This document shows, one piece after another, positions 4,380 through 19,667 of a stretch of DNA of 64,000 bases (its first letter is position 1; the number at the start of each line of letters is the position of its first letter). The notes beneath the pieces were generated by a model that ran no database searches, had not been told where the DNA came from, and saw nothing but the letters and a program-made list of their open reading frames with translations. The position numbers and the translations under genes are program-made. The stretch spans positions 62,001 through 126,000 of the forward strand of contig CAIPAH010000003.1 in assembly GCA_903862955.1 (NCBI GenBank), written 5' to 3'. Origin of the DNA: an uncultured Opitutia bacterium. GTDB lineage: Bacteria; Verrucomicrobiota; Verrucomicrobiia; Opitutales; Opitutaceae.

Positions 4380-7300
4380 TCAGGCTTTGACTGTCTTGCG
4401 GCGACGCCAGCCGACAAGAATTGCGCACAGGCCGACGAACATGGCTCCGTAGGTGGCGGGTTCCGGCGCCGGGGTGATTTGGTTGTCGTAGGTTTGCCAC
4501 TTGGTGTCGTTGTTCGTGTAGGTCCCGCCCGTGAACGTGATCTGGTTGAGAGGCGAATTCCCCTGGGCGCCGGGATTGGTCTGGTCGTAGAAGTAATCCA
4601 CGGCGTTGATCCAGTTGTTGACGGTCAGGCTCACGCTGGGCGCGATGCTCAGGCTGCTGATGTTGAGGATGCTCGCGGACGAGTTGCCAAAATCGAGGAC
4701 CGAGTTGCCGGAGATCGTCAGGCTGCCAAACGTGTCGGTCGTACCGGCGAGGTTGAGGGTGCCGCCCGCGAGCACCAGGTTCAGGTTCGCCGCATTGAAA
4801 TTGGCGCCCAAGGTCAGGGTTTCGCCGACGCCAATCGTCAGCGTGCCACTGCCGGTGATCGAGCCGCTGAGGAGGCCGGAGCTGCCGGACAGCGTCAATG
4901 CGCCGTTGGTGCCAAAGGCGAGCACGCCGGCGTTGTTGAACAGGCCGGTCAGCGTGCTGGCGGTCCCGTTCAGGTTGAGGGTGCCGCCGGACTGGTTGGT
5001 GACGGAACCGCTGGTCGACAGGGCATTCGCGGCGTTGGCGAGGAAGGTGGCGCCGGAATTGACGGTGATGGCATTGGCGTTCGAGAGCGCGTTGGCGGCG
5101 TTGGCCTGCAGCGTGCCCACGCCAACGGTCACGGTGCCCGTGTAACCTGAGTTAGCGGTGCCGAGGGCGAGCGTCCCGCTGCCGTCCTTGGTGAGGGCGG
5201 TGGTGGCGCCGCCGGTGAGCGCGCCGTTGAACGTGGTGTTGCCGGCGCCGCCGACGTTGAGCGTGCTGCCGTTGGAAACGGCGACCGGGCCGCTGAGCAC
5301 GAGGGTGCCCGCATCCGACTGCAGGCGCGAATTCGCCGTCACGCTGACATTGCCCGTGAGCGTGTTGGTGCCGGAAAGATTTTCGATCGCGCCATTGTTG
5401 GTGGCCGCGCCGTTGGTCGAGAGGGTGAAGTTGCTGCCGAGCGTCGAGCCGCCCTGGACCTCGAAGTTGCCGGTGCCGGAGACGGCGACGTTGGCGGTGC
5501 CGGTGGCATTCGTGATGCCGGCGACCACGACGCCGTTGCTCAGGTTGAGGTTGCCGGTGAAGCCCGTGCTGGCCGCGTTGAGAGTGAGCCGCCCCGTGCC
5601 GGTTTTGGCCAAGGTGCCGCTGCCCGTGACGGTGCCGGCAAACGTCGTCGAGGCGGCGCCGCCCAGCGTGAGCGTGCCGCTGCCGAGGGAAACGGTGCCG
5701 CCCGTGCCGGACACGTTCGCGACGGTCTCGGAGAATCCCCCGAGGTTAAAGGTGCCACTGTTCACGGTCAGGATGCCGGAGGTCGCGAGCTGGTTGGACG
5801 CGTTGTCATTCACCGTGCCCCCGGCGACCGTGAGGCTGCCGGCGAGCGAGGTTCCGCTGAGGTTCAGGATGCCGGAGTTGACCGTGGTCAGGCCGGTGTA
5901 GGTGTTGGCGCCGGAAAAGGTGGTGGTGCCGCTGCCGCTCAAGGTGACCCCGCCGGTGCCGGTCGCGATGGCGCTGGAGAAGATGCTGTTGCCCGTGCCG
6001 GTGAGGGTGAGGGTGTTGCCGGCCCCGGTGACGCCGCCGTTGATCGCGAGCGTGCCCGATCCGATATTAAACGTCGTGGCCCCGCCCAGCGTGATGGCGC
6101 CGTTCATGGTGGCGGTGTTGCCGGCGCCCGGTGTCGCATACAGGGCGCCGTTGCTGGAGGCGCCGGTGCCCGTCAGGTTGAGCGCGTTGGCCAGGGTCAG
6201 GCCGGAATTTACCTGCAGCGTGGCGCCCGACAGGACCGTCGTCGCGGCGGTGCCCAGGGCCGAGTTGCTGCCCGAAACCTGGACCGTGCCGCCGAAGACG
6301 TTGATGCCGCCAGTGAAGCCGCTGTTGTTGCCGGTGAGGACGAGCGTGCCGGCGCTGAGTTTCGACAGGCTGCCGCTGCCGCTCAGCGTGGAACCAAAAG
6401 TCAGAAGTCCCGCTCCCGTCACGTCGACCACGCTGTTGACGGACACTGCAATGTTGCCGCCGTTGATGGCTTGGTTGGACGCGGACTGTTGGATGATGCT
6501 CGGCAGCGCGCCATTCAACGTCAGGGTGTTGCCGCCTTGGGCGATCGCGAACGCGCCGGCGGCGGAGTCAAATTTGACCGCGTTGACGTAATAGTTGCTG
6601 TTCATGGCGGGCGCGAGGCGCGTCGAGCCGGTGAAGTCGAGCTTCTGGGTGCTGCCGATCGCGGTGCTCGGGCCGATGCCGCTCACCCAGTTCGCGGCGG
6701 TTGACCAGTTGTTGTTCCCGCTGCCGCCGTTCCACGTCAGGAAGGCGTTGTTCGGCGTGATGATGTAACCGTTCGGCTCGCCATTGCCCGTGGCCGTCAG
6801 GCTGCCGGCTTCAACGGCGCCGGAGCCGCTGCCGACGAAGTAAATCTGGGCCAGCAGTCCCGCGGCGATGCCCGAAGAGGTGGCGGCCAGCGTCGTGCTG
6901 CCGCTGGTCCAATTGGTGATGGTGAGGAGACCCGTGCCGGAGGTCAGGTTGGCAAAGACCAGCGTGTTCGTGGGCGAGCCGGTGCCAAAATTGATCGTGC
7001 CGTTGTTGAACGACAGGTTCCCGATCTGGGTCGAGAAGCCGTTCAGGTTGAGCGTGCTGTTGTTCAACGCGACGGCGGTGTTCGCGTTGAGCGTGTTGTT
7101 GGCGCCGAGTTGCAGCGTGCCGCCGTTCACCGTGGTGGCGCCCGTGTAGGTGTTGGCCCCGCTGACGACGAGGGTGCCGTTGCCGGACTTGGTCAGGCCG
7201 CCGGCGCCGGTGCCGCCGTTGGCGATGGCGCCCGAAATCGTCGACGTGCCGCTGTCCACCTGCGCGGTGAGCGTGTAACCCGTGTTGTTGGCCGACAAGT

Positions 7301-9110
7301 TGACGGCGCCCGACTGCGTCGCATTGGCCATCGTGAGGTTCCGGTTGCCGCCGGACTGCGTGAGGATGCCGCTCGTGGTGAGTCCCGAGAGTCCGGAATC
7401 GGCCTGGAGCGTGAGCGTATTGGCCACGGTGATGCTGCCCGCCGAGGAGCCGAGCGTCCCGCCGTTCAGCACCACCGTGCCGGTGCCGAGCGCGGTGTTG
7501 GTGTTCGCGTTGATTGTGCCGGCCGAAAGGGTCGTGCCGCCCGTGTAGGTATTGGCGCCGGACAGCGTCAGCGTGCCGGTGCCGGTCTTGGTGATGGCGG
7601 CGCCGGAGAGCACGCTGCTGACCGTCAGGTCGCTGGCAAGCGAGGTGTCCCGCGCCACGTTGAAAGTGGTGTTGGCGGACACGAGGGCCAGGTTGCCACC
7701 GAGGATCTGCGAGGTTTGGTGGGCCGCGTTGGTGTTGGCGGTCACGCCATTGCTCAGGGTGACGGTCTGGCCGGCGGTGATGTTGACGGCGCCTCCGTTC
7801 ATCGTGAAGGAGCCTGCGGTGGTGGAGGTGCCCACGTTGAGGGTGCCGTCCGCGTTCACCGTGATGGCGGAGGTGGGCGAGATCTGGTTGACATAACTCG
7901 CGCCGAGCGCGTGCCCGGCGCCCCAGATGTTGACCGCGGCGGTGTTGGCCAGGGAGCCGGTGCCGATCGTGAGCGAGCCATTGATGCCATACCAGCCGGC
8001 GGTCATCGGGCCGACCACGAGTTCCAGCGAGCCGCCGTTGACCACGGTGGCGCCGGTGTAGAAGGAGTTGTAGCCCCAGAGCGTCAGGTCTCCCGTGCCG
8101 TTCTTGATCAGGCCGCCGGTGTCGCCGGCAACGCCGAGGCTCGAATTGATGAACGTGTCACCGGCGCCATCGACGGTGAGCGTGTTGCTGCCGAGGGAGA
8201 ACAGGCTCGAGCCATCCGACTTGCCGAGGTAGAGGACGTTGCCGGCGGTGGCGTTGGAAACCGTGGCGTTCGAGCCCAGCGAAATGGCGCTGTTCCACGT
8301 GTTGTTGGCGCTGATGTTCTGGAAGGCGCCCGCGCCCGTGCCGTTGCCGTTGAGGACCAGGGTGCCGGCGTTGGTCGTCGTGATGTTGCCTTGGATCTGC
8401 AGGACGCCGCCGTTCGCCACCGTGGTGTTGGCGGTGTTCGAGGCCGTGCCCAGCGCGCCGGCATTTTGGATGGTCACCGTGCCCGAGTTGATGTTCGTGG
8501 CGCCGGTGTAGGTGTTGGCCCCGATGAGATTCAGCGTGCCCGTGCCCGCATACGTGAGGTTGCCCGCGGCGGTGCCACCGTTGCCGATCACGCCGCTGAC
8601 GTTCACCGCACCGCTGCCGTTGATGGTCAGCGTGCGTCCAACGGCGCCGGAACCGAGGTTCACGTTGCCGTAGAAGTTCATCGTCCCGGCATTGTTCGTC
8701 CAGGATTGATCCGCCCCGAGCGTGGTCTGGTTGTAGAAGGTCAGGGCGCCGGCGTCGGTGCTGGTCATCCCGGCGGTCAACGTGAGCGTGTTGACGTTGA
8801 TGCTGCCGGCCGCGTCAAATGTGTAGGCGTTCGATCCGCCGGCGTTGGAAAAATTGAGCGAGTAGGCGGCGGCCGTCGGCACGAGTTGAAGCGACTTCGA
8901 CAAACCCAGCACGGTATTGAAGGTGGCAATACTGAGGTTGCTCGGGACGCCTCCGCTCCAGTCGCCGCTGTTGCTCCAAAGACTGGAAGAGGTGCTGGTC
9001 CAGTTGTCCACCGACTGTGCGTTGGCCAGACGCGGCAGGCATGCCAGTGCGCCGAGCAGCATCCAAACAGCTCGCGACCTGATCTGCCTGTGGTTCAAGA
9101 AATACGTCAT
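4380..9110 (-). CDS. Large autotransporter-associated beta-strand repeat protein with PEP-CTERM signal
   Basis: This 1576-residue secreted repeat protein has a signal peptide ending near RLANAQ. It carries about eight recognisable copies of the unit GTGTLxLSGANTYTGxTTxNxGT spread along the chain, for example near the start and at roughly residues 490, 620 and 1130. The rest is low-complexity Gly/Thr/Asn/Ala sequence with no cysteine that I can find in the mature region. The C-terminus has NNWINAVDYFY, FTGGTYTNNDTKW, then PAPEPATYG, a hydrophobic segment and WRRRK: a PEP-CTERM sorting signal. The same block ends the neighbour at 429-4226. Such proteins are common in Verrucomicrobiota; processing by an exosortase is family knowledge. 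The molecular function is unknown. Confidence 0.87.
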   Translation of the reverse strand: MTYFLNHRQIRSRAVWMLLGALACLPRLANAQSVDNWTSTSSSLWSNSGDWSGGVPSNLSIATFNTVLGLSKSLQLVPTAAAYSLNFSNAGGSNAYTFDAAGSINVNTLTLTAGMTSTDAGALTFYNQTTLGADQSWTNNAGTMNFYGNVNLGSGAVGRTLTINGSGAVNVSGVIGNGGTAAGNLTYAGTGTLNLIGANTYTGATNINSGTVTIQNAGALGTASNTANTTVANGGVLQIQGNITTTNAGTLVLNGNGTGAGAFQNISANNTWNSAISLGSNATVSNATAGNVLYLGKSDGSSLFSLGSNTLTVDGAGDTFINSSLGVAGDTGGLIKNGTGDLTLWGYNSFYTGATVVNGGSLELVVGPMTAGWYGINGSLTIGTGSLANTAAVNIWGAGHALGASYVNQISPTSAITVNADGTLNVGTSTTAGSFTMNGGAVNITAGQTVTLSNGVTANTNAAHQTSQILGGNLALVSANTTFNVARDTSLASDLTVSSVLSGAAITKTGTGTLTLSGANTYTGGTTLSAGTINANTNTALGTGTVVLNGGTLGSSAGSITVANTLTLQADSGLSGLTTSGILTQSGGNRNLTMANATQSGAVNLSANNTGYTLTAQVDSGTSTISGAIANGGTGAGGLTKSGNGTLVVSGANTYTGATTVNGGTLQLGANNTLNANTAVALNNSTLNLNGFSTQIGNLSFNNGTINFGTGSPTNTLVFANLTSGTGLLTITNWTSGSTTLAATSSGIAAGLLAQIYFVGSGSGAVEAGSLTATGNGEPNGYIITPNNAFLTWNGGSGNNNWSTAANWVSGIGPSTAIGSTQKLDFTGSTRLAPAMNSNYYVNAVKFDSAAGAFAIAQGGNTLTLNGALPSIIQQSASNQAINGGNIAVSVNSVVDVTGAGLLTFGSTLSGSGSLSKLSAGTLVLTGNNSGFTGGINVFGGTVQVSGSNSALGTAATTVLSGATLQVNSGLTLANALNLTGTGASSNGALYATPGAGNTATMNGAITLGGATTFNIGSGTLAINGGVTGAGNTLTLTGTGNSIFSSAIATGTGGVTLSGSGTTTFSGANTYTGLTTVNSGILNLSGTSLAGSLTVAGGTVNDNASNQLATSGILTVNSGTFNLGGFSETVANVSGTGGTVSLGSGTLTLGGAASTTFAGTVTGSGTLAKTGTGRLTLNAASTGFTGNLNLSNGVVVAGITNATGTANVAVSGTGNFEVQGGSTLGSNFTLSTNGAATNNGAIENLSGTNTLTGNVSVTANSRLQSDAGTLVLSGPVAVSNGSTLNVGGAGNTTFNGALTGGATTALTKDGSGTLALGTANSGYTGTVTVGVGTLQANAANALSNANAITVNSGATFLANAANALSTSGSVTNQSGGTLNLNGTASTLTGLFNNAGVLAFGTNGALTLSGSSGLLSGSITGSGTLTIGVGETLTLGANFNAANLNLVLAGGTLNLAGTTDTFGSLTISGNSVLDFGNSSASILNISSLSIAPSVSLTVNNWINAVDYFYDQTNPGAQGNSPLNQITFTGGTYTNNDTKWQTYDNQITPAPEPATYGAMFVGLCAILVGWRRRKTVKA

Positions 9111-9163
9111 ATTTTTACTACGGCCAAAATCTAAGCCTCTGTTGCGGGAATATCACCCAATAA

Positions 9164-9191
9164 AATATAGGTATGAATACCCAGATAGCAA
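9164..9191 (-). promoter_or_regulatory. Putative sigma-70-type promoter for the 1576-aa PEP-CTERM gene
   Basis: On the minus strand TTGCTA (plus 9186-9191) is followed after 16 bases by TATATT (plus 9164-9169), about 54 bases before the ATG at 9110. The surrounding 9100-9310 interval is clearly richer in A+T than the rest of the window, which supports a promoter. Otherwise I see nothing in this 197-base gap. Confidence 0.45.
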
Positions 9192-9307
9192 TTAGGGGTG
9201 TTTTGACCGACTAACACTCCAGAGAGGCATGGCCGTCCCAATCTGTTGCATCTTCATTACATAACCATTTGGACCACAATATCCTGCAATTCCCGTGGCG
9301 TCCAAAC

Positions 9308-10411
9308 TCAGTTATTGAACCGGAATAGGGCAACGTCGCCGTCGGCAAAGACATACTCCTTGCCCTCGAGCCGGTATTTCCCGGCCTCGCGCGCGGCGGC
9401 GACGCTGCCGAGTTTGGTGAGGTCGGCGTAGGAAACGATTTCGGCCTTGATGAAGCCTTTCTCGAAGTCGGTGTGGATGACGCCGGCGGCCTGCGGGGCC
9501 TTCCAGCCTTTCTTGATCGTCCAGGCGCGGACTTCCTTTTCGCCGGCGGTGAAATACGTCATCAGCCCGAGCAGCGCATAGGTGCCCTTGATGAGCGCGG
9601 ACACGCCGGAATCGTCGACGCCGAGATCCTTCAAAAACGCCTTCGCCTCCTCGGGCGGGAGGTCGATCAACTCGGACTCGATCTTCGCGCTGATTGGCAC
9701 GTAGGCGGCGTCGTGGTGCGTGCGGACATACTCGGCGACCTTCTGCACGAACGGATTCTGTTCGGCGGTGGCGAGGTCGCTCTCGGCGACGTTGCACGCG
9801 AACAGCACGGGCTTGGCGGTGAGCAGCTGAAAGAGCTTCATCAACGCGGTCTCCTCGGGCGTGGCGGCGAGGGTGTTCGCGGTCTTGCCGGAGTTGAGGT
9901 GCGGGGAAAGTTTCTCGAGCAGCGCCATCTCAATGATGGCTTCCTTGTCGCCGGACTTGGCCTTCTTCTGGGTTTTCTCGATGCGCTTGGCGACGGCCTC
10001 GAGGTCGGCGAGCACGAGCTCGGTCGTGATCACCTCGATATCGCGCACGGGATCGACGCCGCCCATCGTGTGGATGATGTCGGAGTCCTCGAAGCAGCGG
10101 ACGACCTGGACGATGGCGTCGACCTCGCGGATGGTGGCGAGAAACTGGTTGCCGAGACCCTCGCCCTTGCTGGCGCCGGCGACGAGGCCGGCGATGTCGA
10201 CGAACTCGATGGCGGCGGGGACGACGACGTTGGTCTTGGCGATTTTCTGCAGCACGTAGGCGCGCTCATCGGGCACGACGACGACGCCAACGTTCGGATC
10301 GATGGTGCAGAACGGGTAATTCGCGGCCTCCGCCTTGCGGGAGCGGGTCAGGGCGTTGAAGAGGGTGGACTTGCCCACATTGGGCAGGCCGACGATGCCA
10401 GCTTTGAGCAT
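9308..10411 (-). CDS. ychF: Ribosome-associated ATPase YchF/EngD (OLA1 family)
   Basis: The 367-residue Obg-like ATPase has the usual length. G1 is GLPNVGKS at residues 8-15 and the GEGLGNQF region of the G domain is present. NVAESD stands where classical GTPases have NKxD, which explains the family's preference for ATP. The C-terminal TGS domain is seen as [13 protein letters not shown] through [15 protein letters not shown]. YchF binds ribosomes and affects stress responses and translation start fidelity. The ATG at 10411 was chosen because homologues begin [15 protein letters not shown]; the open frame upstream overlaps the DUF4242 gene and is not coding. The gene lies just downstream of the DUF4242 gene but behind a hairpin terminator. 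Confidence 0.97.
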
Positions 10412-10451
10412 AAGGAGCGAACCGTCTCGCGCCGCACGGGGCCGGTCAACG

Positions 10452-10483
10452 GAAAAGCCGCGCCGTCCGAGGACAGCGCGGCT
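10452..10483 (-). terminator. Rho-independent terminator after the DUF4242 gene
   Basis: On the minus strand AGCCGCGC (plus 10476-10483) pairs perfectly with GCGCGGCT (plus 10456-10463) around a 12-base loop that can itself pair, followed by a TTTT tract. It lies 26 bases past the DUF4242 stop and 41 bases before the ychF start, so ychF may be expressed separately. Confidence 0.7.
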
Positions 10484-10508
10484 CGGAAGTAACCAGCGAT
10501 TTAGCGAA

Positions 10509-10784
10509 TCAGGCCTCGGCCGTGACGGGGCTGATGATCTGGTGCACCTTGGAAACGCGGTTGGCGGGGAAGCCGCCCTGTTTGGCGTGCTCGCGCACCA
10601 TGGCCTCGTTCGGGGCAAGGTAGACGCAGTAGACCTTGTCGTCGGTCACGTAGCTTTCGACCCACTGAATTTGTGGGCCAAGTTTTTGGAGCACGCCGCA
10701 AGACTTCTGGGAGATGCCTTGGAGTTGCTCAGCCGTTAGTTTTCCGGCGCCGGGGATATCGCGTTCGATGACGTATTTGGGCAT
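10509..10784 (-). CDS. DUF4242 (SCO4226-type nickel-binding) small protein
   Basis: A 91-residue cytoplasmic protein beginning MPKYVIERDIPGAGKLTAEQL, with SQKSCGVLQKLGP, WVESYVTDDKVYCVY and REHAKQGGFPANRVS. This is the full DUF4242 fold, a ferredoxin-like alpha/beta domain. One member, SCO4226 of Streptomyces, is described as nickel-binding. Whether this copy binds metal, and what it does, cannot be told from sequence. It is transcribed on its own, with a hairpin terminator behind it, and diverges from rpsP. Confidence 0.85.
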   Translation of the reverse strand: MPKYVIERDIPGAGKLTAEQLQGISQKSCGVLQKLGPQIQWVESYVTDDKVYCVYLAPNEAMVREHAKQGGFPANRVSKVHQIISPVTAEA

Positions 10785-10924
10785 GGGATTATGGAGTTGT
10801 GTTCAGGGCGGCTGGGCCGCCGGGACCACGTTGACGCCGGCTGTGTTATCCACAAGCCCGGATCATTCCGGATTAGGTCCGTGACGACTTAACAGGCACC
10901 GGCGCCGCCACTGGGTATCCGGGC

Positions 10925-10953
10925 TTGACACCGGCTGGGCCGGGCGGTGTTGT
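10925..10953 (+). promoter_or_regulatory. Putative promoter of the rpsP operon
   Basis: A perfect -35 hexamer TTGACA (10925-10930) is followed after 17 bases by TGTTGT (10948-10953), a poor -10 match. It lies 44 bases before the rpsP ATG. The spacing is ideal and the position sensible, but the -10 is weak. The rest of the 212-base gap 10785-10996 holds one DnaA-box-like 9-mer and nothing else I recognise. Confidence 0.45.
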
Positions 10954-10996
10954 CCTCAGCTTTTCCACGCAAGAATCGCTCCGCAAAACATCCGTC

Positions 10997-11263
10997 ATGG
11001 CTCTCAAAATCCGTCTCACCCGCATCGGCGCCGTCCACCAGCCGCACTACCGCTTCGTCATTGCCGAGGCCCGTTCCCGCCGCGATGGCGATCCGGTTGA
11101 AGTCGTGGGTATTTATGATCCCCGCCTCAAGGGCGAGACCGTCAAGCTCAAGCTCGACCGCGTCGATTACTGGCTCAGCAAGGGCGCGAAGCCGACCGAC
11201 ACCGTCCACGCGATGATCAAGAAGGCCCGCCGCGCCGCGCCGGCTGCGGCGCCCGCCGCCTGA
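10997..11263 (+). CDS. rpsP: 30S ribosomal protein S16
   Basis: An 88-residue protein of the small ribosomal subunit starting MALKIRLTRIGAVHQPHYRFV, with AEARSRRDGDPVEVVGIYDP and DRVDYWLSKGAKPTDTVH, the conserved S16 core needed for 30S assembly. The C-terminus is a short Ala/Pro tail (AAPAAAPAA). It is the first gene of the rpsP-trmD-rplS group. There is no Shine-Dalgarno motif before the ATG. The usual second gene of this operon, rimM, is absent here. Confidence 0.98.
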   Translation: MALKIRLTRIGAVHQPHYRFVIAEARSRRDGDPVEVVGIYDPRLKGETVKLKLDRVDYWLSKGAKPTDTVHAMIKKARRAAPAAAPAA

Positions 11264-11269
11264 TTTTGG

Positions 11270-11375
11270 CGCACGCCAAGGCGCAAAGTCGCAAAGAAAC
11301 CCAGTTTTGGCCTCGGAATATTTCCGGGGCTTTTTTTTTGAATTCCGGCTTTGCGACTTGGCGTCTCTGCGTGAG
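11270..11375. repeat. Intergenic inverted repeat enclosing a terminator-like hairpin
   Basis: The left arm at 11270-11296 reads CGCACGCC then AAGTCGCAAAG, and the right arm at 11349-11375 reads CTTTGCGACTTGGCG then CTCTGCGTGAG. The arms pair over about 27 bases with a few mismatches. The dyad fills the gap between rpsP and trmD. Confidence 0.65.
11309..11339 (+). terminator. Rho-independent terminator or attenuator between rpsP and trmD
   Basis: CCTCGGAA (11311-11318), loop TAT, TTCCGGGG (11322-11329), then C and nine T (11331-11339). The outer G-C pair extends the stem to nine pairs, including one G-T wobble. By structure this is a convincing intrinsic terminator, although trmD and rplS follow in the same direction. 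It may uncouple S16 from the downstream genes. Confidence 0.7.
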
Positions 11376-11389
11376 ATAAATCCGAAACC

Positions 11390-12064
11390 ATGCCGCTCAA
11401 GATCGACGTCCTCACGCTGTTTCCGCGGATGCTCGATAGCGTCCTGGCCGAGAGCATTCTCGGCAAGGGCATCGCGGCGGGTCACTTGGGCGTCACCGTC
11501 CACGACCTGCGCGCCTGGACGACCGACAAGCACCGCACGGCCGACGACCGGCCGTTCGGGGGTGGGGCGGGCATGGTGATGAAGCCCGAACCGGCCATTG
11601 CCGCGGTCGAGGCGCTGCAAACCCCCGGCTGCCGGCGCATCTACCTGACTCCCGACGGCGTGCCGCTTTCCCCGGCGCTGGCGGAAGAACTTTCCCGGCA
11701 GCAACATCTGGTGCTGCTCAGCGGCCATTACGAGGGGATCGACCAGCGCATCCGCGACACGGTGATCGACCAGGAGATCAGCATCGGGGATTACGTGCTG
11801 ACGAACGGCACGCTGGCGGCGGCGGTTTTGATCGATGCGCTGGCCCGTTTCATCCCCGGCGTATTGGGGGAGGAAAAGTCATTGACGCACGAATCCTTCA
11901 CCAGCAAGTTGCTCGACTTTCCTCAATACACGCGTCCCGCCGAATATCGGGGCATGTCCGTTCCGGAGGTCTTACTTTCCGGAAACCATGCCGAAATCGA
12001 GAAGTGGCGGCACGCGCGACAGGTGGAAAAGACCCGCTCCGTCCGACCCGATTTACTCAAATAA
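11390..12064 (+). CDS. trmD: tRNA (guanine-N1-)-methyltransferase
   Basis: The 224-residue SPOUT enzyme makes m1G37 in tRNAs read at codons starting with C, preventing +1 frameshifts, with S-adenosylmethionine as donor. Visible signatures are LKIDVLTLFPRM at the start, RPFGGGAGMVMKPEP, LLSGHYEGIDQRI, SIGDYVLTNGTLAA in the trefoil-knot cofactor site, and EYRGMSVPEVLLSGNH. Length is at the short end of the family, lacking extra C-terminal sequence. It lies between rpsP and rplS, with rplS only 6 bases downstream. Confidence 0.97.
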   Translation: MPLKIDVLTLFPRMLDSVLAESILGKGIAAGHLGVTVHDLRAWTTDKHRTADDRPFGGGAGMVMKPEPAIAAVEALQTPGCRRIYLTPDGVPLSPALAEELSRQQHLVLLSGHYEGIDQRIRDTVIDQEISIGDYVLTNGTLAAAVLIDALARFIPGVLGEEKSLTHESFTSKLLDFPQYTRPAEYRGMSVPEVLLSGNHAEIEKWRHARQVEKTRSVRPDLLK

Positions 12065-12070
12065 ACAGCC

Positions 12071-12466
12071 ATGAACCCGATCATCTCCCAAATCACCGCC
12101 GAACAGGTGAAAAAAGACGTTACGCCCTTCAAAGTGGGCGACGGCGTGCGCGTGCACACCAAGGTGCGTGAAGGCGACAAGGAGCGCGTCCAGGTCTACT
12201 CCGGCATCGTCATCGCCCGGAAGGGTCACGGCATCCACGAGACCTTCACCGTCCGCCGCATCAGCTACGGCGAAGGCGTCGAGCGCGTGTTCCCGGTCAA
12301 CTCGCCGAACATCGAGAAGATCGAGGTCGAGCGCGAGTCCGAGGTCATGAAGGCCCGCCTTTACTACCTCCGCCACCGCACCGGCAAGGCCGCCGTTGCG
12401 GTCAAGGTGCGCGAGAACCGCACCGAGGAAGCCGCGGCCGCGCCTGCGCCCGCCGCCGCGAGCTGA
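12071..12466 (+). CDS. rplS: 50S ribosomal protein L19
   Basis: A 131-residue ribosomal protein located at the 30S-50S interface. The core [50 protein letters not shown] and [11 protein letters not shown] is standard L19. A C-terminal Glu/Ala/Pro tail ([13 protein letters not shown]) extends beyond the usual end, as in S16 of the same operon. It starts 6 bases after the trmD stop, so the two are co-transcribed. A strong terminator follows. Confidence 0.98.
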
Positions 12467-12490
12467 GTTCGCGTCACGCGATTGTTTTCC

Positions 12491-12519
12491 AGCGAGCCCC
12501 TTCCGGGGCTCGCTTTTTT
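12491..12519 (+). terminator. Rho-independent terminator of the rpsP-trmD-rplS operon
   Basis: AGCGAGCCCC (12491-12500), loop TTCC, GGGGCTCGCT (12505-12514) form a perfect 10-pair stem. With the last stem base it runs into six T. It sits 24 bases past the rplS stop. Confidence 0.93.
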
Positions 12520-12585
12520 ATTGTCCCGATTTCAGCTTTCCGGGGTCTGTCCTGACATTTACTGCTAACCGACCGTCCATTTCCC

Positions 12586-14574
12586 ATGTCACTGCAAACG
12601 CCCATCCTCGCCCAAGCCGCGGCGCAAGCCCGCGGTCTCGCCATTGACGCCGTGCACAAGGCCGGCATCGGCCACCTCGGCCTGCCGCTCGGCTGCGCCG
12701 AAATCGGAGCCGTGCTTTTCGGCCACGCACTTTCGCTCAATCCCGACCGGCCCCGCTGGATCAACCGCGACCGCTTCGTCCTCTCCGCCGGCCACGGCTC
12801 GATGTTCCTCTACGCCTGGCTGCACCTCGCGGGTTTCGAGCTCACGCTCGAGGACATCACGGAATTCCGTCAGCTGCATTCGAAGACGCCGGGACATCCG
12901 GAGTTCGGCCACACGGCGGGCGTTGAGGCCACCACCGGCCCGCTCGGCCAGGGCATCGGCAACGCCGTCGGCATGGCTGTCGCCGGCCAGATGGCCCGCG
13001 CGCGGTTCAACACCGCCGAGCACGAGCTCTTTGATTACCATGTCGTCTGCCTCGCGGGCGACGGTTGCATGCAGGAAGGCGTGGGCATGGAGGCGGTCGA
13101 GTTCGCCGGCCACCAGAAGCTCGATAATCTCATCCTGATCTACGACTCGAACGACGTGACGCTCGACGCGATGGCGAGCAAGACGCAGAGCGAGAACACC
13201 GCCGGGCGCTTCAAGGCCATCGAGTGGGACGTGCAGACGGTCGACGGCCAGGACATGGCCGCGTTTCTCAAGGCCTTCAACAAGGCGAAGAAGGCGAAGA
13301 GCGGCAAACCGCAGCTCATCATCACGCGCACCCTCATCGGCAAGGGCATTCCCGAGGTGGAGGGCACCGCGAAGGCGCACGGCGAGGGTGGGGCGAAGTT
13401 CGCCGACTCCGCCCGCCTCGGCCTCGGTCTCCCGGCCGACCAGCTTTTCTACGTCAGCCCGGAGGTCTACGAATATTTTGCCGACCACAAAGCCCGGCAG
13501 GTCCGCGCCTACAACCGCTGGCACAAGACGTTCAAAGCGTGGCGCGAGGCCAACTCCGACAAGGCCGCGCTACTCGACGGCGCCTCCACGCACCCGACGG
13601 CCCCGCATCTGCTGGAAAAGATCTCGGTGTTTCCTGCTGATGCGAAGCACCCCGGCACGCGCGGCTCGGGTCGCGAGGTCCTGCAACCACTCGCTGCCGA
13701 GTTGCCACTGTTGATCAGCGGCTCGGCTGACCTGCACGGTTCCACCTACAATTACATCAACTCCGACAAGGATTTCGATCCCACGAATCGCGCGGGACGG
13801 AACATCCGCTTCGGCATCCGCGAGCACGCGATGGCCGCCATGTGCAACGGCATCGCCTACGACGGCCTCTTCCGCCCGTCGTGTGCAACTTTCCTCGTGT
13901 TCGCCGACTACTCGCGTCCTTCGATGCGCCTCGCCGCGCTCGCGAAGCTGCCCGTCGTCTACATTTACACGCACGACTCCGTTGGCGTGGGCGAGGACGG
14001 TCCCACGCACCAACCGGTGGAAACGATTTCCGCGCTGCGGCTGATTCCGAATTTCGATGTCATCCGTCCCGCCGATGCCGAGGAAACTGCCGGCGCGTTT
14101 GCCGCGGCGTTGGAACGCGCGGACGGACCGACGCTGCTCGCGCTGACGCGCCAGGCCGTGCCGATGCTCAACGACATTCCCCCTCACATCCGCCGCGCGG
14201 GCGTGTTGAAGGGCGGCTACGTCGCCATCCAGGAAACGGCGCCGCTCACCACGATCCTCATCGCCACCGGCAGCGAACTGCAGCTTGCCGTCGCCGCGGC
14301 GAAGGAACTCGGCGCGGGCACGCGCGTCGTCTCGATGCCCTGCACCGAGCGCTTTGACCGCCAGCCCGAGGAATACCGTGAGAGCATTCTCCCGTCGTCC
14401 TGCCGCAAGCGCGTCGCGATCGAGGCGGGCGTCACGAGTTTCTGGCGGAAATACGTCGGACTTGATGGCAAGGTGGTTGGCATTGACCGCTTCGGCCTCA
14501 GCGCCCCGTTCGCCCAGGTCTTCAAGGAACTTGGGATCACCACGGAAGCCCTGGTCGCCGCCGCCCGCAGTTGA
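12586..14574 (+). CDS. tkt: Transketolase
   Basis: The 662-residue thiamine-diphosphate enzyme of the non-oxidative pentose phosphate pathway moves two-carbon units between ketose and aldose phosphates. The full-length domain order is present: a diphosphate-binding domain with [26 protein letters not shown] and the [13 protein letters not shown] cofactor motif near residue 160; a pyrimidine domain with [15 protein letters not shown] and [16 protein letters not shown]; and a C-terminal domain ending [16 protein letters not shown] and [16 protein letters not shown]. It follows the rplS terminator, so it is probably a separate transcript. With zwf at 40 kb the window holds both branches of the pathway. 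Confidence 0.98.
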
Positions 14575-14668
14575 TGCCACCCGCCCGGGCGGCGGAAATT
14601 CTGCAGCCATCCTGCAATTAGCGGGATGTGAAAAATTTGAATCTTTGCCGACTTGTGCTTGTGTTTGT

Positions 14669-14684
14669 GGTTAGCTCCCTAACC
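14669..14684 (+). promoter_or_regulatory. Candidate MarR/SlyA-type operator
   Basis: GGTTAG-CTCC-CTAACC is a perfect 6+6 palindrome 35 bases before the MarR start codon. The core TTAG-N4-CTAA matches 9 of 12 bases of the SlyA consensus TTAGCAAGCTAA, from memory. MarR-family regulators commonly repress their own operon from such sites. I could not place a convincing -35/-10 pair around it, so binding and autoregulation are inferred. Confidence 0.5.
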
Positions 14685-14718
14685 ATCCCAACTCTGAATA
14701 ATTAATTTCAGCCCAGCC

Positions 14719-15273
14719 GTGCCTCACCTCCTGCTCAAAGATCTCCCCCGTTACGAGTGCCTGCTCGAGTCGGCGAAAGAGTTTCCCGACCTCGATCCGT
14801 CGGCGTGCGAAGCTTTTCTGCACCTGTTGCGGTCAGCAGACGAGGGTGCGCGCGTGGTGCAGGGTCCCCTGGCGCAGCACAATATTTCGCAGGGCCGCTT
14901 CGGCGTCCTCATGCTGCTGCTCAAGCGGTGCGGTCGCAATGCGTCGACGCTGGGCCCGGCTGAACTGGCGGACGCCGCCGGGGTCAGTCGCGCCACGATG
15001 ACGGGTTTGATCGACACGCTGGAGCGCGACGGCTTGGTGACGCGGGAACCCGACACCGTGGATCGTCGCATGATGATCGTCTGCCTCACGCCCAAGGGTC
15101 ATGAGCTGCTACAGGCAATCCTGCCGGATCATTTCAAGCGCATGGCCTGGCTGATGTCGCCCCTGTCCGAGGACGAGCGCCAGACTCTCCTGCGTTTGCT
15201 GAACAAAATCCAGCGCCAGGCCGATTCGTCACCAGAGGCGAGTCCCGCGCCGGCGGCCCTGGCCGTCAGTTGA
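14719..15273 (+). CDS. MarR-family transcriptional regulator of the efflux operon
   Basis: A 184-residue dimeric winged-helix regulator. The DNA-binding part lies at about residues 60-125: GRFGVLMLLLKRCG, ELADAAGVSRATMTGLIDTLERDGLV (recognition helix) and the wing with the family's DRRM motif. The start is GTG; no ATG occurs in a sensible place nearby and no Shine-Dalgarno is visible. The gene is followed 58 bases later by an RND adaptor, pump and outer-membrane channel, the classic layout of a ligand-responsive repressor controlling efflux. The C-terminal Ser/Pro/Ala tail is not conserved. The ligand is unknown. Confidence 0.92.
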   Translation: MPHLLLKDLPRYECLLESAKEFPDLDPSACEAFLHLLRSADEGARVVQGPLAQHNISQGRFGVLMLLLKRCGRNASTLGPAELADAAGVSRATMTGLIDTLERDGLVTREPDTVDRRMMIVCLTPKGHELLQAILPDHFKRMAWLMSPLSEDERQTLLRLLNKIQRQADSSPEASPAPAALAVS

Positions 15274-15331
15274 GGCGCACTTATTGCTGAACCGTTCACC
15301 TCCCAACCATTTTCCTTTTACCCACACCATC

Positions 15332-16462
15332 ATGCTCAAGAAAATCATCATCGCCCTGGTCCTTATTGTCGCGGTCGTCTGCGTACTTTTCTACAGCAAG
15401 AAATCGCAGTTTACGGCCATGGGCGCTGCCCAGATGGCGATGGTCATGCCGCCTGAGACGGTCACCGCCACCGCCGCCATCCAGCAGGACTGGGAGACGA
15501 ATATTACTGCCACCGGCTCGGTGGTGGCCGTGCAAGGCGTGACGGTCTCGGCCGAGATGGCCGGAAAAGTCTCCAAGATCTCCTTCGAAGCCGGTTCTGC
15601 GGTCAAAGCGGGCGACCTGCTGGTGCAGCTCGACACGGCTACGGAAGAGGCCCAACTCGCCGCCGCCGAAGCGGGGGCCAAGTGGGCCCAGCTCAATTTG
15701 GATCGGGCCAAGGATCTTCGGGAAAAAAGCACCAACTCCCAATCTGACGTCGACAGCGCCACCGTGCAGGCGAAGCAGGCCGATGCCCAAGTGGAGGGCA
15801 TTCGCGCGGCGATCGCCAAGAAGACCATCAGGGCCCCCTTTGCCGGGAAACTCGGCCTCCGGTTGGTCAATCTGGGCCAGATCCTCAAGGAGGGCGACCC
15901 CATTGCCTCCCTGCAAACGCTCGATCCGATCTACGTGAACTTTTCGCTGCCGCAACAGCGCCTCGCCGAGCTGACGGTGGGTGGGGTGGTGCGGGTTACC
16001 AGTGATGCCGTGCCCGGCGAAACCCTCGAGGGCAAGGTCACGGCGGTGAATCCCGACGTCGATGCCGTGACGCGCAACGTGCGGGTGCAGGCCACGCTGA
16101 CGAATGCCAGCGAAAAACTGCGGCCGGGAATGTTCGCCACGGTCACCGTGGTGCTCCCGAACAAGGAAAGCGTGCGCGCGATCCCGGCGTCGTCCGTGCT
16201 TTATGCACCCTACGGTGATTCGGTCTTCGTGGTGGATGAAAAACAGGACGCCAAGAGCGGCAAGACGGAGAAAGTGCTCCGCCAGCAGTTCGTCCGGCTT
16301 GGTACAACGCGGGGCGATTTCGTCTCCGTGGTGTCGGGTTTGAAGGAAGGCGAGGTCATCGTGACCTCCGGGGTGTTCAAGCTACGGCCCGGTGAGGCGG
16401 TGGTCATCGACAACACCCTCGCGCCGAATGCCCAGCTCGCCCCGAAGCCGAGCGATACCTGA
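15332..16462 (+). CDS. RND efflux periplasmic adaptor (membrane fusion protein)
   Basis: The 376-residue adaptor bridges the inner-membrane RND pump and the outer-membrane TolC channel. An N-terminal membrane anchor (IIIALVLIVAVVCVLFY) is followed by the lipoyl-like half-motif VSAEMAGKVSKISFEAGSAV, a coiled-coil hairpin at about residues 90-155, the second half-motif TIRAPFAGKLGLR, and beta-barrel and membrane-proximal domains (RNVRVQATLTN, LRPGMFATVTV). The ATG at 15332 is chosen because it directly precedes the anchor; an in-frame alternative start exists 48 bases upstream. It is the second gene of the marR-adaptor-pump-tolC operon. Confidence 0.95.
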   Translation: MLKKIIIALVLIVAVVCVLFYSKKSQFTAMGAAQMAMVMPPETVTATAAIQQDWETNITATGSVVAVQGVTVSAEMAGKVSKISFEAGSAVKAGDLLVQLDTATEEAQLAAAEAGAKWAQLNLDRAKDLREKSTNSQSDVDSATVQAKQADAQVEGIRAAIAKKTIRAPFAGKLGLRLVNLGQILKEGDPIASLQTLDPIYVNFSLPQQRLAELTVGGVVRVTSDAVPGETLEGKVTAVNPDVDAVTRNVRVQATLTNASEKLRPGMFATVTVVLPNKESVRAIPASSVLYAPYGDSVFVVDEKQDAKSGKTEKVLRQQFVRLGTTRGDFVSVVSGLKEGEVIVTSGVFKLRPGEAVVIDNTLAPNAQLAPKPSDT

Positions 16463-16512
16463 GCCGAGCCTGAACCACTTCGACCCTTCCTGTTTGGCAA
16501 GCGCCACGTCCC

Positions 16513-19500
16513 ATGAACAAAGCCTTTACTGATCTCTTCATCCGCCGGCCGGTCCTGGCAATCGTTGTCAGCCTGGTCATCGTCATCGCCGGCATCCAGG
16601 CTTACCGCTCGCTGAACATCCGCCAGTACCCGCGCAGCGACAACGCCTCCGTCACCATTTCCACCGTGTACGTCGGCGCCAGCGCCGAGCTCGTGCGCGG
16701 ATTCGTCACCACCCCCCTGGAGCAGGCCATCGCGGCCGCGGATGGCATCGATTACATCGAGTCGAAGAGCCTGCAGGGCTACTCGCTCATCAACGTCCGC
16801 CTCAAGCTCAACTACGAGCCGATCAAGGCCCTCGCCGAAATCAGCGCGAAGGTGAACCAGGTCCGCAACGACCTGCCGCCCGAAGCCGAGGTGCCGGCGA
16901 TCAGCGTGCAGTCGGCGGACAGCCAGTTCGCCTCGGCGTATCTCAGCTTCGCGTCCGACGTCCTGTCGCAAAACGAAATCACCGATTACCTCGTGCGCGT
17001 GGTGCAGCCGCGCCTTTCCGCCGTGGCCGGGGTGCAGCGCGCCGACATCATCGGCGCCCGCACCTTCGCCATGCGCATCTGGCTCAAGTCCGACCGGATG
17101 GCGGCGTACAACATCAGCCCGTCGCAGGTGCGCGCCGCGCTGGCCGCCAACAACTACCTCTCCGCCATCGGCACGACCAAGGGCGCGCTCGTGCAGGTCA
17201 ACCTGACGGCCGACACCGACCTGCACTCCGTCGGGGATTTCAAGCGCCTGATCGTCCGGCAGCAGAACGACACGATTGTCCGCCTCGAGGATATTGCGGA
17301 CGTGGCGCTGGGCTCCGAAGACTACGACACCACGGTGCGCATGACCGGCAAGACCGCCGTGTTCATCGGGATTTATCCGCTGCCCAACGCCAACACGATT
17401 GATGTCGTCAAGCGCGTGCGGACGGAACTCGAGGCGGTCAAGAAGGGCCTGCCGAACGGACTGGAAGCCGGCATCGGCTACGACGCCTCGGAGTATATCG
17501 AGAACGCGATCCATGATGTTTTCCACACCATGATGGACACGCTGTTGATCGTGATGGTCGTGATCTTCCTCTTCCTTGGCTCCTGGCGTTCGGTGCTCGT
17601 GCCGGTTGCGGCCATCCCCGTTTCGCTGATTGGCGCGCTCTTTCTGATGCAGGTATTCGGCTTCACCATCAACTTGCTGACGCTGCTCGCCATTGTGCTC
17701 TCGGTGGGTCTCGTGGTCGACGACGCCATTGTCGTGGTGGAAAACGTCGAGCGTCACCTGCGCGAAGGCCGCACGCCGATCGATGCGGCGCTGATTGGCG
17801 CCCGCGAACTCGTCGGGCCGATCATCGCGATGACCATCACGCTGGCGGCGGTTTACGCGCCCATCGGTCTGCAGGGTGGCCTCACCGGCACCCTGTTCCG
17901 GGAATTTGCGCTCACGCTGGCGGGGGCGGTGACAATCTCCGGAATCGTGGCGCTCACGCTTTCGCCCATGATGTCCTCGCGTCTCCTCCAGAGTGCGGAG
18001 GCGGAGGAGCGTGGGTTCGCGGGCTGGGTCAACCATAAGTTTGACGCGTTGCGCCAATCCTACGGGCGGGCCCTGGGTGGCACGCTGAACGCGCGACCCG
18101 CCGTTTACCTGGTGTGGGCGGTGTTCGGCTTGTTGTGGATCCCGATGTACATGTTTTCGCCCAAGGAACTGGCCCCCACCGAGGACCAGGGCGTGATCTT
18201 CGGCATCATCAATGCCGCCTCGAACGTCTCGGCCGACCAGAAGAACGTCTATGGTAAGGCCGCGGAAAAAGCATTTCTGGTGACGCCCGAGCGGGACCTG
18301 ACCTTCCAGATCATGCTCCCGCCGGCCGCGGGAGCATCGGTCGGCGCGGACGGTTTCAGCGGCATGGTCGTGAAGCCGTGGAATCAGCGCAAGCGCACCA
18401 CCGCCCAGATTCTGCCCGAGGTGCAGGGCCGGCTGTCGCAAATTCCCGGGCTCCAAATCTTCGTCGCGCTGCCCTCGGCGCTGCCGGGCGGCAGCAATTT
18501 CCCGGTGGAGTTCGTCATCGCGTCGACGGCGGACGCTTCCCAGATGTTGGCGTTTGCGCAAAAGATCCAGATGAAGGCCGCGCAGAGCGGCATCTTCTAC
18601 TTTCCGCCGCTGATTGACCTCAAGATCGACCAGCCGCAGGCGCAGATCATGATCGACCGGGAAAAAGCCGGGACCCTGGGGGTCAGCCTGGCCCAAGTGG
18701 GGGCCGACCTCGCCTCGGCCATGGGCGGCAATTACGTCAATCGCTTCAACATCAGCGGCCGCAGCTACAAGGTGATCCCGCAGCTCAAGCGCGGGGAACG
18801 CCTCAATGCCGACCAGTTGAAGGACATCTATGTCACCGGGCCCAACGGTCAGCTCGTGCCCCTCAGCACGATCGCGACCATCCGCAACGAGACGGTGCCC
18901 CGTTCGCTCAATCGCCTGCAGCAGCTCAACGCGGTGAAATTGTCCGGACTGACCAACCGCACGCTGGACGAGGCGCTCAAGGTCCTGGAAAACGCGGCGC
19001 GGGAAATCCTGCCTCCGGGCTACAGCATCGATTACACGGGTGAATCCCGCCAGCTCCGGCAGGAGGGCAACAAATTTGTGCCCGCCTTCATGCTCGCCGT
19101 GGTGCTTATCTTCCTGGCGCTGGCCGTCCAGTTTAACTCGTTCCGCGACCCGCTCGTCATTCTGCTCGGATCCGTCCCGCTCGCCATGTTTGGGGCGCTG
19201 CTCTTCACCTTCCTGAAGATGCCGAATCCGAACGTGCCCTCCTGGACCTCCGGCTGGACCACGACGATGAACATCTACGCGCAGGTCGGCCTGGTCACGC
19301 TGGTGGGCCTGGTCGCCAAGAACGGCATCCTGATCGTGGAGTTCGCCAACAAGCTCCAGGAGGCCGGCAAACCGAAGCTCGAGGCCATCCACGACGCGGC
19401 CATGACCCGGCTGCGCCCGATCCTGATGACCTCGGTGGCCACCATTGCGGGCCATTTCCCGCTGACCCTCGTCACCGGTGCCGGCGCCGCCGCCCGTAAC

Positions 19501-19662
19501 TCCATCGGTCTGGTGCTCGTCGGCGGCATGACCATCGGCACGATTTTCACGCTTTTCGTCGTTCCCTCGCTCTACATCCTCATCGCCAAGGACCACACCA
19601 AAGACCGACAGTCGGCGACCGTGCCGGCCCCCGGTCTGGCCAGCGCGGTTCCGGCCAAGTAA
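16513..19662 (+). CDS. RND efflux pump, HAE1 family (AcrB/MexB-like)
   Basis: The 1049-residue inner-membrane proton-driven drug/solute pump begins with the typical FTDLFIRRPVLAIVVSLVI helix. It has two large periplasmic loops and about 12 transmembrane helices. The proton-relay pair D403-D404 is seen in LSVGLVVDDAIVVVENVERH in TM4, and the partner lysine in GLVAKNGILIVEFAN in TM10. The length is standard for the hydrophobic and amphiphilic efflux (HAE1) subfamily rather than heavy-metal pumps. It is preceded by its adaptor and followed 5 bases later by a TolC gene, so the full tripartite pump is encoded. The substrate cannot be predicted. Confidence 0.97.
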   Translation: MNKAFTDLFIRRPVLAIVVSLVIVIAGIQAYRSLNIRQYPRSDNASVTISTVYVGASAELVRGFVTTPLEQAIAAADGIDYIESKSLQGYSLINVRLKLNYEPIKALAEISAKVNQVRNDLPPEAEVPAISVQSADSQFASAYLSFASDVLSQNEITDYLVRVVQPRLSAVAGVQRADIIGARTFAMRIWLKSDRMAAYNISPSQVRAALAANNYLSAIGTTKGALVQVNLTADTDLHSVGDFKRLIVRQQNDTIVRLEDIADVALGSEDYDTTVRMTGKTAVFIGIYPLPNANTIDVVKRVRTELEAVKKGLPNGLEAGIGYDASEYIENAIHDVFHTMMDTLLIVMVVIFLFLGSWRSVLVPVAAIPVSLIGALFLMQVFGFTINLLTLLAIVLSVGLVVDDAIVVVENVERHLREGRTPIDAALIGARELVGPIIAMTITLAAVYAPIGLQGGLTGTLFREFALTLAGAVTISGIVALTLSPMMSSRLLQSAEAEERGFAGWVNHKFDALRQSYGRALGGTLNARPAVYLVWAVFGLLWIPMYMFSPKELAPTEDQGVIFGIINAASNVSADQKNVYGKAAEKAFLVTPERDLTFQIMLPPAAGASVGADGFSGMVVKPWNQRKRTTAQILPEVQGRLSQIPGLQIFVALPSALPGGSNFPVEFVIASTADASQMLAFAQKIQMKAAQSGIFYFPPLIDLKIDQPQAQIMIDREKAGTLGVSLAQVGADLASAMGGNYVNRFNISGRSYKVIPQLKRGERLNADQLKDIYVTGPNGQLVPLSTIATIRNETVPRSLNRLQQLNAVKLSGLTNRTLDEALKVLENAAREILPPGYSIDYTGESRQLRQEGNKFVPAFMLAVVLIFLALAVQFNSFRDPLVILLGSVPLAMFGALLFTFLKMPNPNVPSWTSGWTTTMNIYAQVGLVTLVGLVAKNGILIVEFANKLQEAGKPKLEAIHDAAMTRLRPILMTSVATIAGHFPLTLVTGAGAAARNSIGLVLVGGMTIGTIFTLFVVPSLYILIAKDHTKDRQSATVPAPGLASAVPAK

Positions 19663-19667
19663 TTTCT

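Follow-up and report, generated by a model that had tools for sequence, protein, structure and literature searches.

A conserved terminator behind rpsP lies between the arms of a dispersed palindromic repeat in an Opitutaceae genome

Dispersed palindromes of bacterial genomes are known as REP and REPIN sequences, with their RAYT genes (PMC3116915, PMC3733652), and genes flanked by long inverted repeats, with gene-less copies dispersed elsewhere, are known from TIRtrons (PMC3733652) and MITE-like inverted repeats. REP/REPIN sequences are short palindromes that form inverted doublets around a spacer, come in genome-specific flavours and flank a gene, and a REP palindrome carries GTAG or CGTC, left unpaired, at one of its ends (PMC3733652). 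REP/REPIN palindromes with RAYT genes, and TIRtrons, are the nearest known kind to the repeat that we describe here from an Opitutaceae genome and its relatives, which shares all of these features except the tag. Three differences from REP/REPIN concern the arms, in which units of 8 or 9 nt stand in arrays, the spacers, which are unique and can contain a gene or a terminator, and the flanked gene, which (comparing on that gene alone) belongs to the PD-(D/E)XK superfamily and is not a HUH tyrosine transposase.

In the intervening sequences of 23S rRNA, complementary arms bracket a gene for a four-helix-bundle protein. The site considered here is not in an rRNA gene; it lies within a group of ribosomal-protein genes. 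In E. coli and many bacteria the order of this group is rpsP-rimM-trmD-rplS, as an operon that is continuous in E. coli, and in other bacteria khpA and rimM sit between rpsP and trmD.

The window, a 64,000-nt stretch of an uncultured Opitutia bacterium, comes from a genome of 3.61 Mb that is rated 100% complete. In it rpsP, trmD and rplS are consecutive and all on the plus strand, and the gap of 126 nt between rpsP and trmD holds no rimM. Pfam identities and adjacency thus confirm what a sequence-only reading of this DNA had claimed of the gene order. The features are as follows.

10997..11263, plus strand: rpsP, ribosomal protein S16 (PF00886, E=1e-21)
11265..11296, plus strand: left arm of the outer dyad, CGCnAAGn units, by sequence a member of a dispersed palindromic repeat (inverted-repeat search; genome pattern matches)
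11309..11339, plus strand: intrinsic terminator of rpsP, stem 11309-11331 and nine T 11331-11339 (terminator scan, -15.5 kcal/mol)
11349..11380, minus strand: right arm of the outer dyad, the inverted repeat copy (inverted-repeat search; genome pattern matches)
11390..12064, plus strand: trmD, tRNA (guanine-1) methyltransferase (PF01746, E=8.3e-62)
12071..12466, plus strand: rplS, ribosomal protein L19 (PF01245, E=2.1e-44), starting 6 nt past the trmD stop
12491..12514, plus strand: terminator stem after rplS, then a T run (terminator scan, -21.6 kcal/mol)

Elsewhere in the window, the minus strand of 4380-9110 encodes a repetitive protein of 1576 aa that contains passenger-associated transport repeats (PF12951) and, at its C terminus, a PEP-CTERM motif (PF07589, E=0.00012).

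The inner hairpin has the form of an intrinsic terminator, with a GC-rich stem of 10 pairs, a 3-nt loop and a run of nine T, and its energy is that of the hairpin folded alone. It ranks second among the 18 terminator-like sites listed in 15 kb, a class of site that is not rare, since shuffled sequence averages 13.0 of them. This hairpin and its T tract lie inside an inverted repeat, as the sequence-only reading had described. That reading called the repeat imperfect and 27 bases long; the dyad is real, but the description as a unique 27-base repeat gives way to arms of ∼32 nt made of 8-nt CGCnAAGn units. The two 32-nt arms are 78% complementary, and a 22-nt core reaches 86%. A chance dyad is rejected by two kinds of shuffle: the local complementarity of the terminator flanks is 18 (shuffled flanks average 7.9 and reach 18 once in 2,000), and the region 11255-11395 (141 nt) has a folding energy of -56.8 kcal/mol (z = -3.88; none of 200 shuffles equally stable). 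RNA of the whole gap folds at -53.4 kcal/mol. An Rfam RNA element was likewise rejected, the three matches in 10780-12620 each falling under half of their gathering score.

Sequences like the arms recur across the genome. A 23-nt arm pattern with up to 3 mismatches has 35 matches, two being the arms of this site and 33 elsewhere, versus 0 for the reversed pattern used as control. Thirty of the 35 matches were fetched and read as 22 distinct elements. By script, 20 of these pair as inverted arms (L021 loosely), giving two inverted copies and a hairpin-capable spacer as in a REPIN; L018 and L029 are solo arms. Judged by eye, loops vary from copy to copy, from 7 to ∼100 nt, elements often stand just past a stop codon, and the copies mostly have TCAC...GTGA feet. 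No GTAG or CGTC tag was seen by eye at the feet of the arms, a difference from REP. By a crude reading-frame call, the neighbouring genes are tandem at 9 of 21 sites, convergent at 7, divergent at 3 and undecided at 2; the 16 tandem or convergent sites are a further likeness to REP/REPIN. Terminators as general cargo of these palindromes were rejected, because just 3 of 20 loops have at least five consecutive T and, by eye, a strong hairpin with a T run is found only at rpsP-trmD.

Beyond this genome, a stricter pattern with a 9-nt period is present in 109 of 150 family genomes, with up to 154 matches per genome, and its reversed control is zero in most of the 150, with a maximum of 7. Flavours of the repeat tend, by eye, toward genome specificity. 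As background, similar-looking arms are known from other phyla. In the open-access literature we found no paper carrying CGCAAAG-type arm strings and none on Verrucomicrobia interspersed palindromic repeats of this kind, and CACGAAG/CACAGAG-type strings were found only in an unrelated paper. From these pattern matches, we conclude that the outer arms are members of a dispersed palindromic repeat.

In other genomes, two long loops enclose genes for small, nuclease-like proteins of the GxxExxY family, L260 (the gene of L268; TIGR04256 and PF13366) and L261 (PF13366, E=5.4e-34). The family is multi-copy and a PF13366 gene is present in 129 of 150 family genomes. Among the 30 best-scoring family loci, taken one per genome and hence not a random sample, 25 have a forward CRCRRAG-type arm within 150 nt upstream of the PF13366/TIGR04256 gene, 26 have a reverse arm within 250 nt downstream, and 23 have both. 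Inward-facing motifs cluster close to the gene, with 50 within 150 nt upstream versus 12 at 500-1500 nt, and 49 versus 11 downstream. Arms of this type on both sides were found at 1 of 30 loci of the four-helix-bundle family PF05635, chosen in the same way, and at 0 of 30 trmD loci, a weak control because rplS starts directly behind trmD and leaves no intergenic room; an upstream forward arm is present in 12 of the 30 trmD loci. A second comparison used no motif. Flank complementarity of at least 14 was reached by 29 of 30 family GxxExxY loci, by 20 of 27 loci from elsewhere in the phylum (30 sampled, minus three family loci already counted), by 23 of 30 PF05635 loci and by 1 of 30 trmD loci. 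When flanks were paired across loci, 36 of 90 family GxxExxY pairs, 17 of 81 other phylum GxxExxY pairs and 17 of 90 PF05635 pairs reached 14, the first of these fractions being high because the arms resemble one another.

Genomes with the gene also tend to have the repeat. Matches occur in 104 of 129 genomes with GxxExxY versus 5 of 21 without (maximum 4), a correlation that is partly circular because arms at GxxExxY genes count as matches. With two matches per GxxExxY gene subtracted, more than 4 extra remain in 36 of the 129 genomes and in 0 of the 21. In the sister genome G580, the arm at a GxxExxY gene (L287), the arm at rpsP-trmD (L141) and an arm at a second site (L328) have a CACGC..AGACGC unit in common. 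The window's own genome has three GxxExxY genes, whose arms are of other flavours, and none of the three is a copy with the CGCAAAG flavour.

Four-helix-bundle genes were rejected as partners of the GxxExxY-type arm motif, on the 1 locus in 30 given above. PF05635 is itself a multi-copy family, with a gene in 81 of 100 family genomes, and inverted periodic arms bracket 23 of its 30 loci (L297-L326). These arms are of GTTGAGA, AGTCAGG, GGTAAGC and AGTAGCG types, distinct from those at GxxExxY, and arm class therefore follows the enclosed gene. Since these genes too are bracketed, a bracketed gene may also be cargo. The Pfam name of the family, 23S_rRNA_IVP, refers to 23S rRNA intervening sequences, which the PF05635 loci resemble in having a small-protein gene between complementary arms, and from which they differ in the classes of their arms. 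The genome of the window has three PF05635 matches, one of which (G000:C23:85084-85398) is interrupted by a TAG stop.

We propose, as an unproven reading of these sequences, that the palindromes derive from a GxxExxY-linked mobile element. The outer dyad is a copy of a dispersed repeat, whose inverted arms consist of degenerate units 8 or 9 nt long (CRCRRAG and one or two more bases) and bracket whatever lies between them, be it short unique DNA, a GxxExxY gene as in relatives or, here, a resident terminator. The arm family may be mobile or under within-genome gene conversion, as differences among species and presence/absence among congeners suggest, and the GxxExxY gene, given its association with the arms, would be the likeliest mobilising relative. 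There is close to an even chance that GxxExxY is instead a passenger and that the arms are spread by another enzyme, such as a RAYT-like tyrosine transposase, or by plain recombination. The bracketing of four-helix-bundle genes by other inverted arms suits a passenger, as it indicates bracketed genes of several kinds, and PMC3733652 describes palindromic repeats whose movement is ascribed to RAYTs. A passenger is harder to reconcile with an arm class that tracks the enclosed gene or with the partial rank correlations in 100 genomes, which are 0.36 for repeat count and GxxExxY given four-helix-bundle genes and 0.13 for the reverse.

A more specific form of the GxxExxY proposal is tentative, and we hold it to be less likely than a passenger. 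An undescribed class of mobile element is predicted, in which inverted arrays of units 8 to 9 nt long are recognised by the PD-(D/E)XK GxxExxY protein, which sets them around resident DNA, including intrinsic terminators. The palindrome in the window would be a gene-less derivative, PF05635 genes would form a parallel class with arm motifs of their own, and the rpsP-trmD gap would be a recurrent target in which arms land on either side of a stop signal and leave it unharmed. No paper tying GxxExxY or PDDEXK_3 to flanking inverted repeats was found in the open-access literature searched.

Many relatives that lack the arms keep a terminator. In the family (Opitutaceae), 137 genomes with trmD yielded 121 loci that were read and 118 gaps, after L175, L177 and L187, with no detectable S16, were dropped. 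By a simple terminator score with a cut-off of 14, 102 of the 118 gaps have a terminator, versus 25 of 570 dinucleotide shuffles, and the strong terminator that the sequence-only reading saw between rpsP and trmD is in this respect conserved across the family. Eight of the 16 low-scoring gaps hold a CGCCC...GGGCG dyad, which the score penalises, and four are gaps of 29-35 nt. The latter four (L181, L190, L200 and L208) are of genus g269 and lack the terminator; the genus g269 genomes G571, G603, G617 and G634 have no PF13366 match and no repeat match (G634 by elimination). Outside the family, 177 genomes of the order were searched and the returned loci read, and 5 of 14 scored gaps reach 14. 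Where both sites were scored, in 41 loci, the terminator behind rpsP (median 18.6; 35 at 14 or more) comes near the one behind rplS (median 19.8; 40 at 14 or more). Terminator sequences among 109 gaps are of type A (GCCTCGG...CCGGGGC) in 66, type B (ATCGCCC...GGGCGAT) in 27, type C (GGTTCGG...) in 8 and other types in 8. The site shares with intrinsic terminators of ribosomal-protein operons a GC-rich hairpin, a following T run and a conserved position, and differs in that repeat arms wrap it in a minority of species and no antiterminator fold was seen. Further palindromes, recognised by eye, stand near some of these terminators. In L234 and L236 a second palindrome of CACGAATGAACAC type is 3' of a type A terminator, and in the 444-nt gap of Cerasicoccus maritimus (L072) CCGCAGAGAACGCGGAG-type arms, past the rpsP terminator, surround a couple of hundred nt in which a short ORF may lie.

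On this comparative evidence, the terminator is the conserved end of the S16 unit in this family. Its conservation and spacing suggest that the rpsP transcript ends there and that rpsP is mostly transcribed alone, with trmD-rplS supplied by the fraction of polymerases that read through or from an unrecognised start. In 39 of 109 gaps no more than 30 nt separate the end of the terminator stem from the start of trmD (58 nt in the window), and trmD thus probably depends on read-through. Termination of rpsP could instead be full, with trmD-rplS transcribed from a promoter of its own in the gap or from a leaderless start. We regard such complete uncoupling as unlikely: the near equality of the scores after rpsP and rplS is what it predicts, but in the 39 gaps the stem is too near trmD for a usual promoter and leader, and a sigma-70-like scan of 5000-20000 gave one site, at 9191, and none in the gap, although chance alone predicts just 1.7 sites and the promoters of this group may depart from the consensus.

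Regulation by attenuation is somewhat less probable again. In such an attenuator, RNA of the gap would toggle between terminator and antiterminator, via S16, polymerase speed or a ligand, and so tune TrmD and L19. A conserved terminator shortly upstream of trmD, with scant room for another promoter in the 39 gaps, is compatible with this arrangement, but the minimum-energy folds of 11264-11342 and 11200-11342, which were the folds computed, retain the terminator and contain no antiterminator upstream of it. The dyad was rejected as an antiterminator on the same ground, since RNA that ends at the T tract still folds into the terminator. Nor can the dyad decide termination, because its right arm is 3' of the terminator and is transcribed only afterwards. 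The gathering-score result for Rfam families in 10780-12620 also speaks against an attenuator, as does the variation of terminator sequence among species, which suits a plain terminator. The suggestion in the sequence-only reading of attenuation, or of uncoupled synthesis of S16 versus TrmD and L19, accordingly divides: a partly separate S16 transcript is backed by the conserved terminators and their spacing, and a role for the dyad in an attenuator is opposed by the folds, by the place of the right arm and by relatives that keep the terminator without the dyad. Any effect of the dyad can only be on read-through RNA or on DNA. In read-through RNA, the arms could pair into a long stem whose loop carries the terminator; such a stem might be a site of cleavage, might make the mRNA more stable or might have no effect.

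Arms around the terminator come and go among relatives. In the flank analysis, which took the 109 gaps with any terminator candidate and a length of at most 320 nt, 106 remained after near-identical gaps were removed. Arm scores of at least 12 were found in 16 of 65 type A gaps versus 0 of 41 others, and 49 of the 65 score below 12. The 16 wrapped gaps are spread over nine genera, and their arm sequences vary widely from species to species. When all 65 type A gaps are taken together, a left flank matches the right flank of its own gap (mean 8.8) better than that of another gap (6.7), and 0 of 10,000 permutations reach the observed mean; we rely on this test and set aside a permutation over the 16 wrapped gaps, which is biased because those gaps were picked by arm score. 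On a tree of S16 and TrmD, the wrapped state requires at least 13 changes for 16 wrapped rows, a count inflated by the poor resolution of ∼110 residues.

Comparison within the genus is more direct. Among seven congeners at rpsP-trmD, five are wrapped (the window's genome G000, with G580, G369, G627 and G611), G597 keeps a single arm by eye, and G345 has a type B terminator and no arms. At a second site, between genes taken by eye as halves of metH, 10 of 11 genus genomes could be compared, G637 being without a match to the flanking genes. The element is present in G000, G580 and G369, and short arm-less spacers are present in G597, G639, G627, G636 and G638. A different insert of ∼130 nt with GAAGCACGA-type arms is found at this site in G611 and G345 (L332 and L333), where G000 has the CGCAAAG element (by eye). 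Filled and short-spacer orthologues were both seen at this one inspected site, where no target-site duplication was recognised by eye; that duplication and the gene family are the points on which the element seems to differ from TIRtrons and MITE-like repeats. In these comparisons, the arms show gain and loss between congeners and are not a fixed structure. That the outer dyad is a functional RNA stem kept by compensatory changes, and no mobile repeat, is very improbable, for although the arms match better within than across gaps despite wide species differences, the same arm motif recurs at many unrelated sites of the genome, G345 has the terminator without arms, and most type A gaps score low for arms.

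The sequence-only reading had tied the dyad and terminator to the missing rimM, a connection that wider searches did not support. PF01782 (RimM) has zero matches in the window's own genome and in 0 of 387 genomes across the phylum, and the NCBIfam RimM model TIGR02273 has zero in 57 genomes including the window's own; each model detected RimM in 10 of 14 control genomes. Relocation of rimM elsewhere in the genome is rejected by these empty searches, and loss of rimM is, by these profile searches, a phylum-wide trait. It is no explanation for the dyad, which is missing from relatives whose genes stand in this same order. The gap is ∼325 nt in two other Verrucomicrobia (L066 and L073), and in L066, which belongs to subdivision 3, it holds a gene for a KhpA-type KH-domain protein (L066:2669-2994; PF13083, E=2.5e-18).

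Taken as a whole, we consider it probable that a conserved terminator ends the S16 transcript within a repeat copy of mobile appearance, that trmD-rplS is supplied by read-through, and that GxxExxY is the likeliest mobilising relative; the outer arms would have no action on termination. The conserved terminator points to a split, in this lineage, of an operon that E. coli keeps in one piece. With that split and the phylum-wide absence of rimM, the balance of S16, TrmD and L19 becomes a measurable question. Of broader interest is that GxxExxY genes are tightly bracketed by arms of the class to which the palindrome around the terminator belongs. The family names GxxExxY and four-helix bundle give no cellular role, and class-specific bracketing by inverted arms offers a testable lead on the roles of both families and on the origin of a common class of bacterial palindromes.
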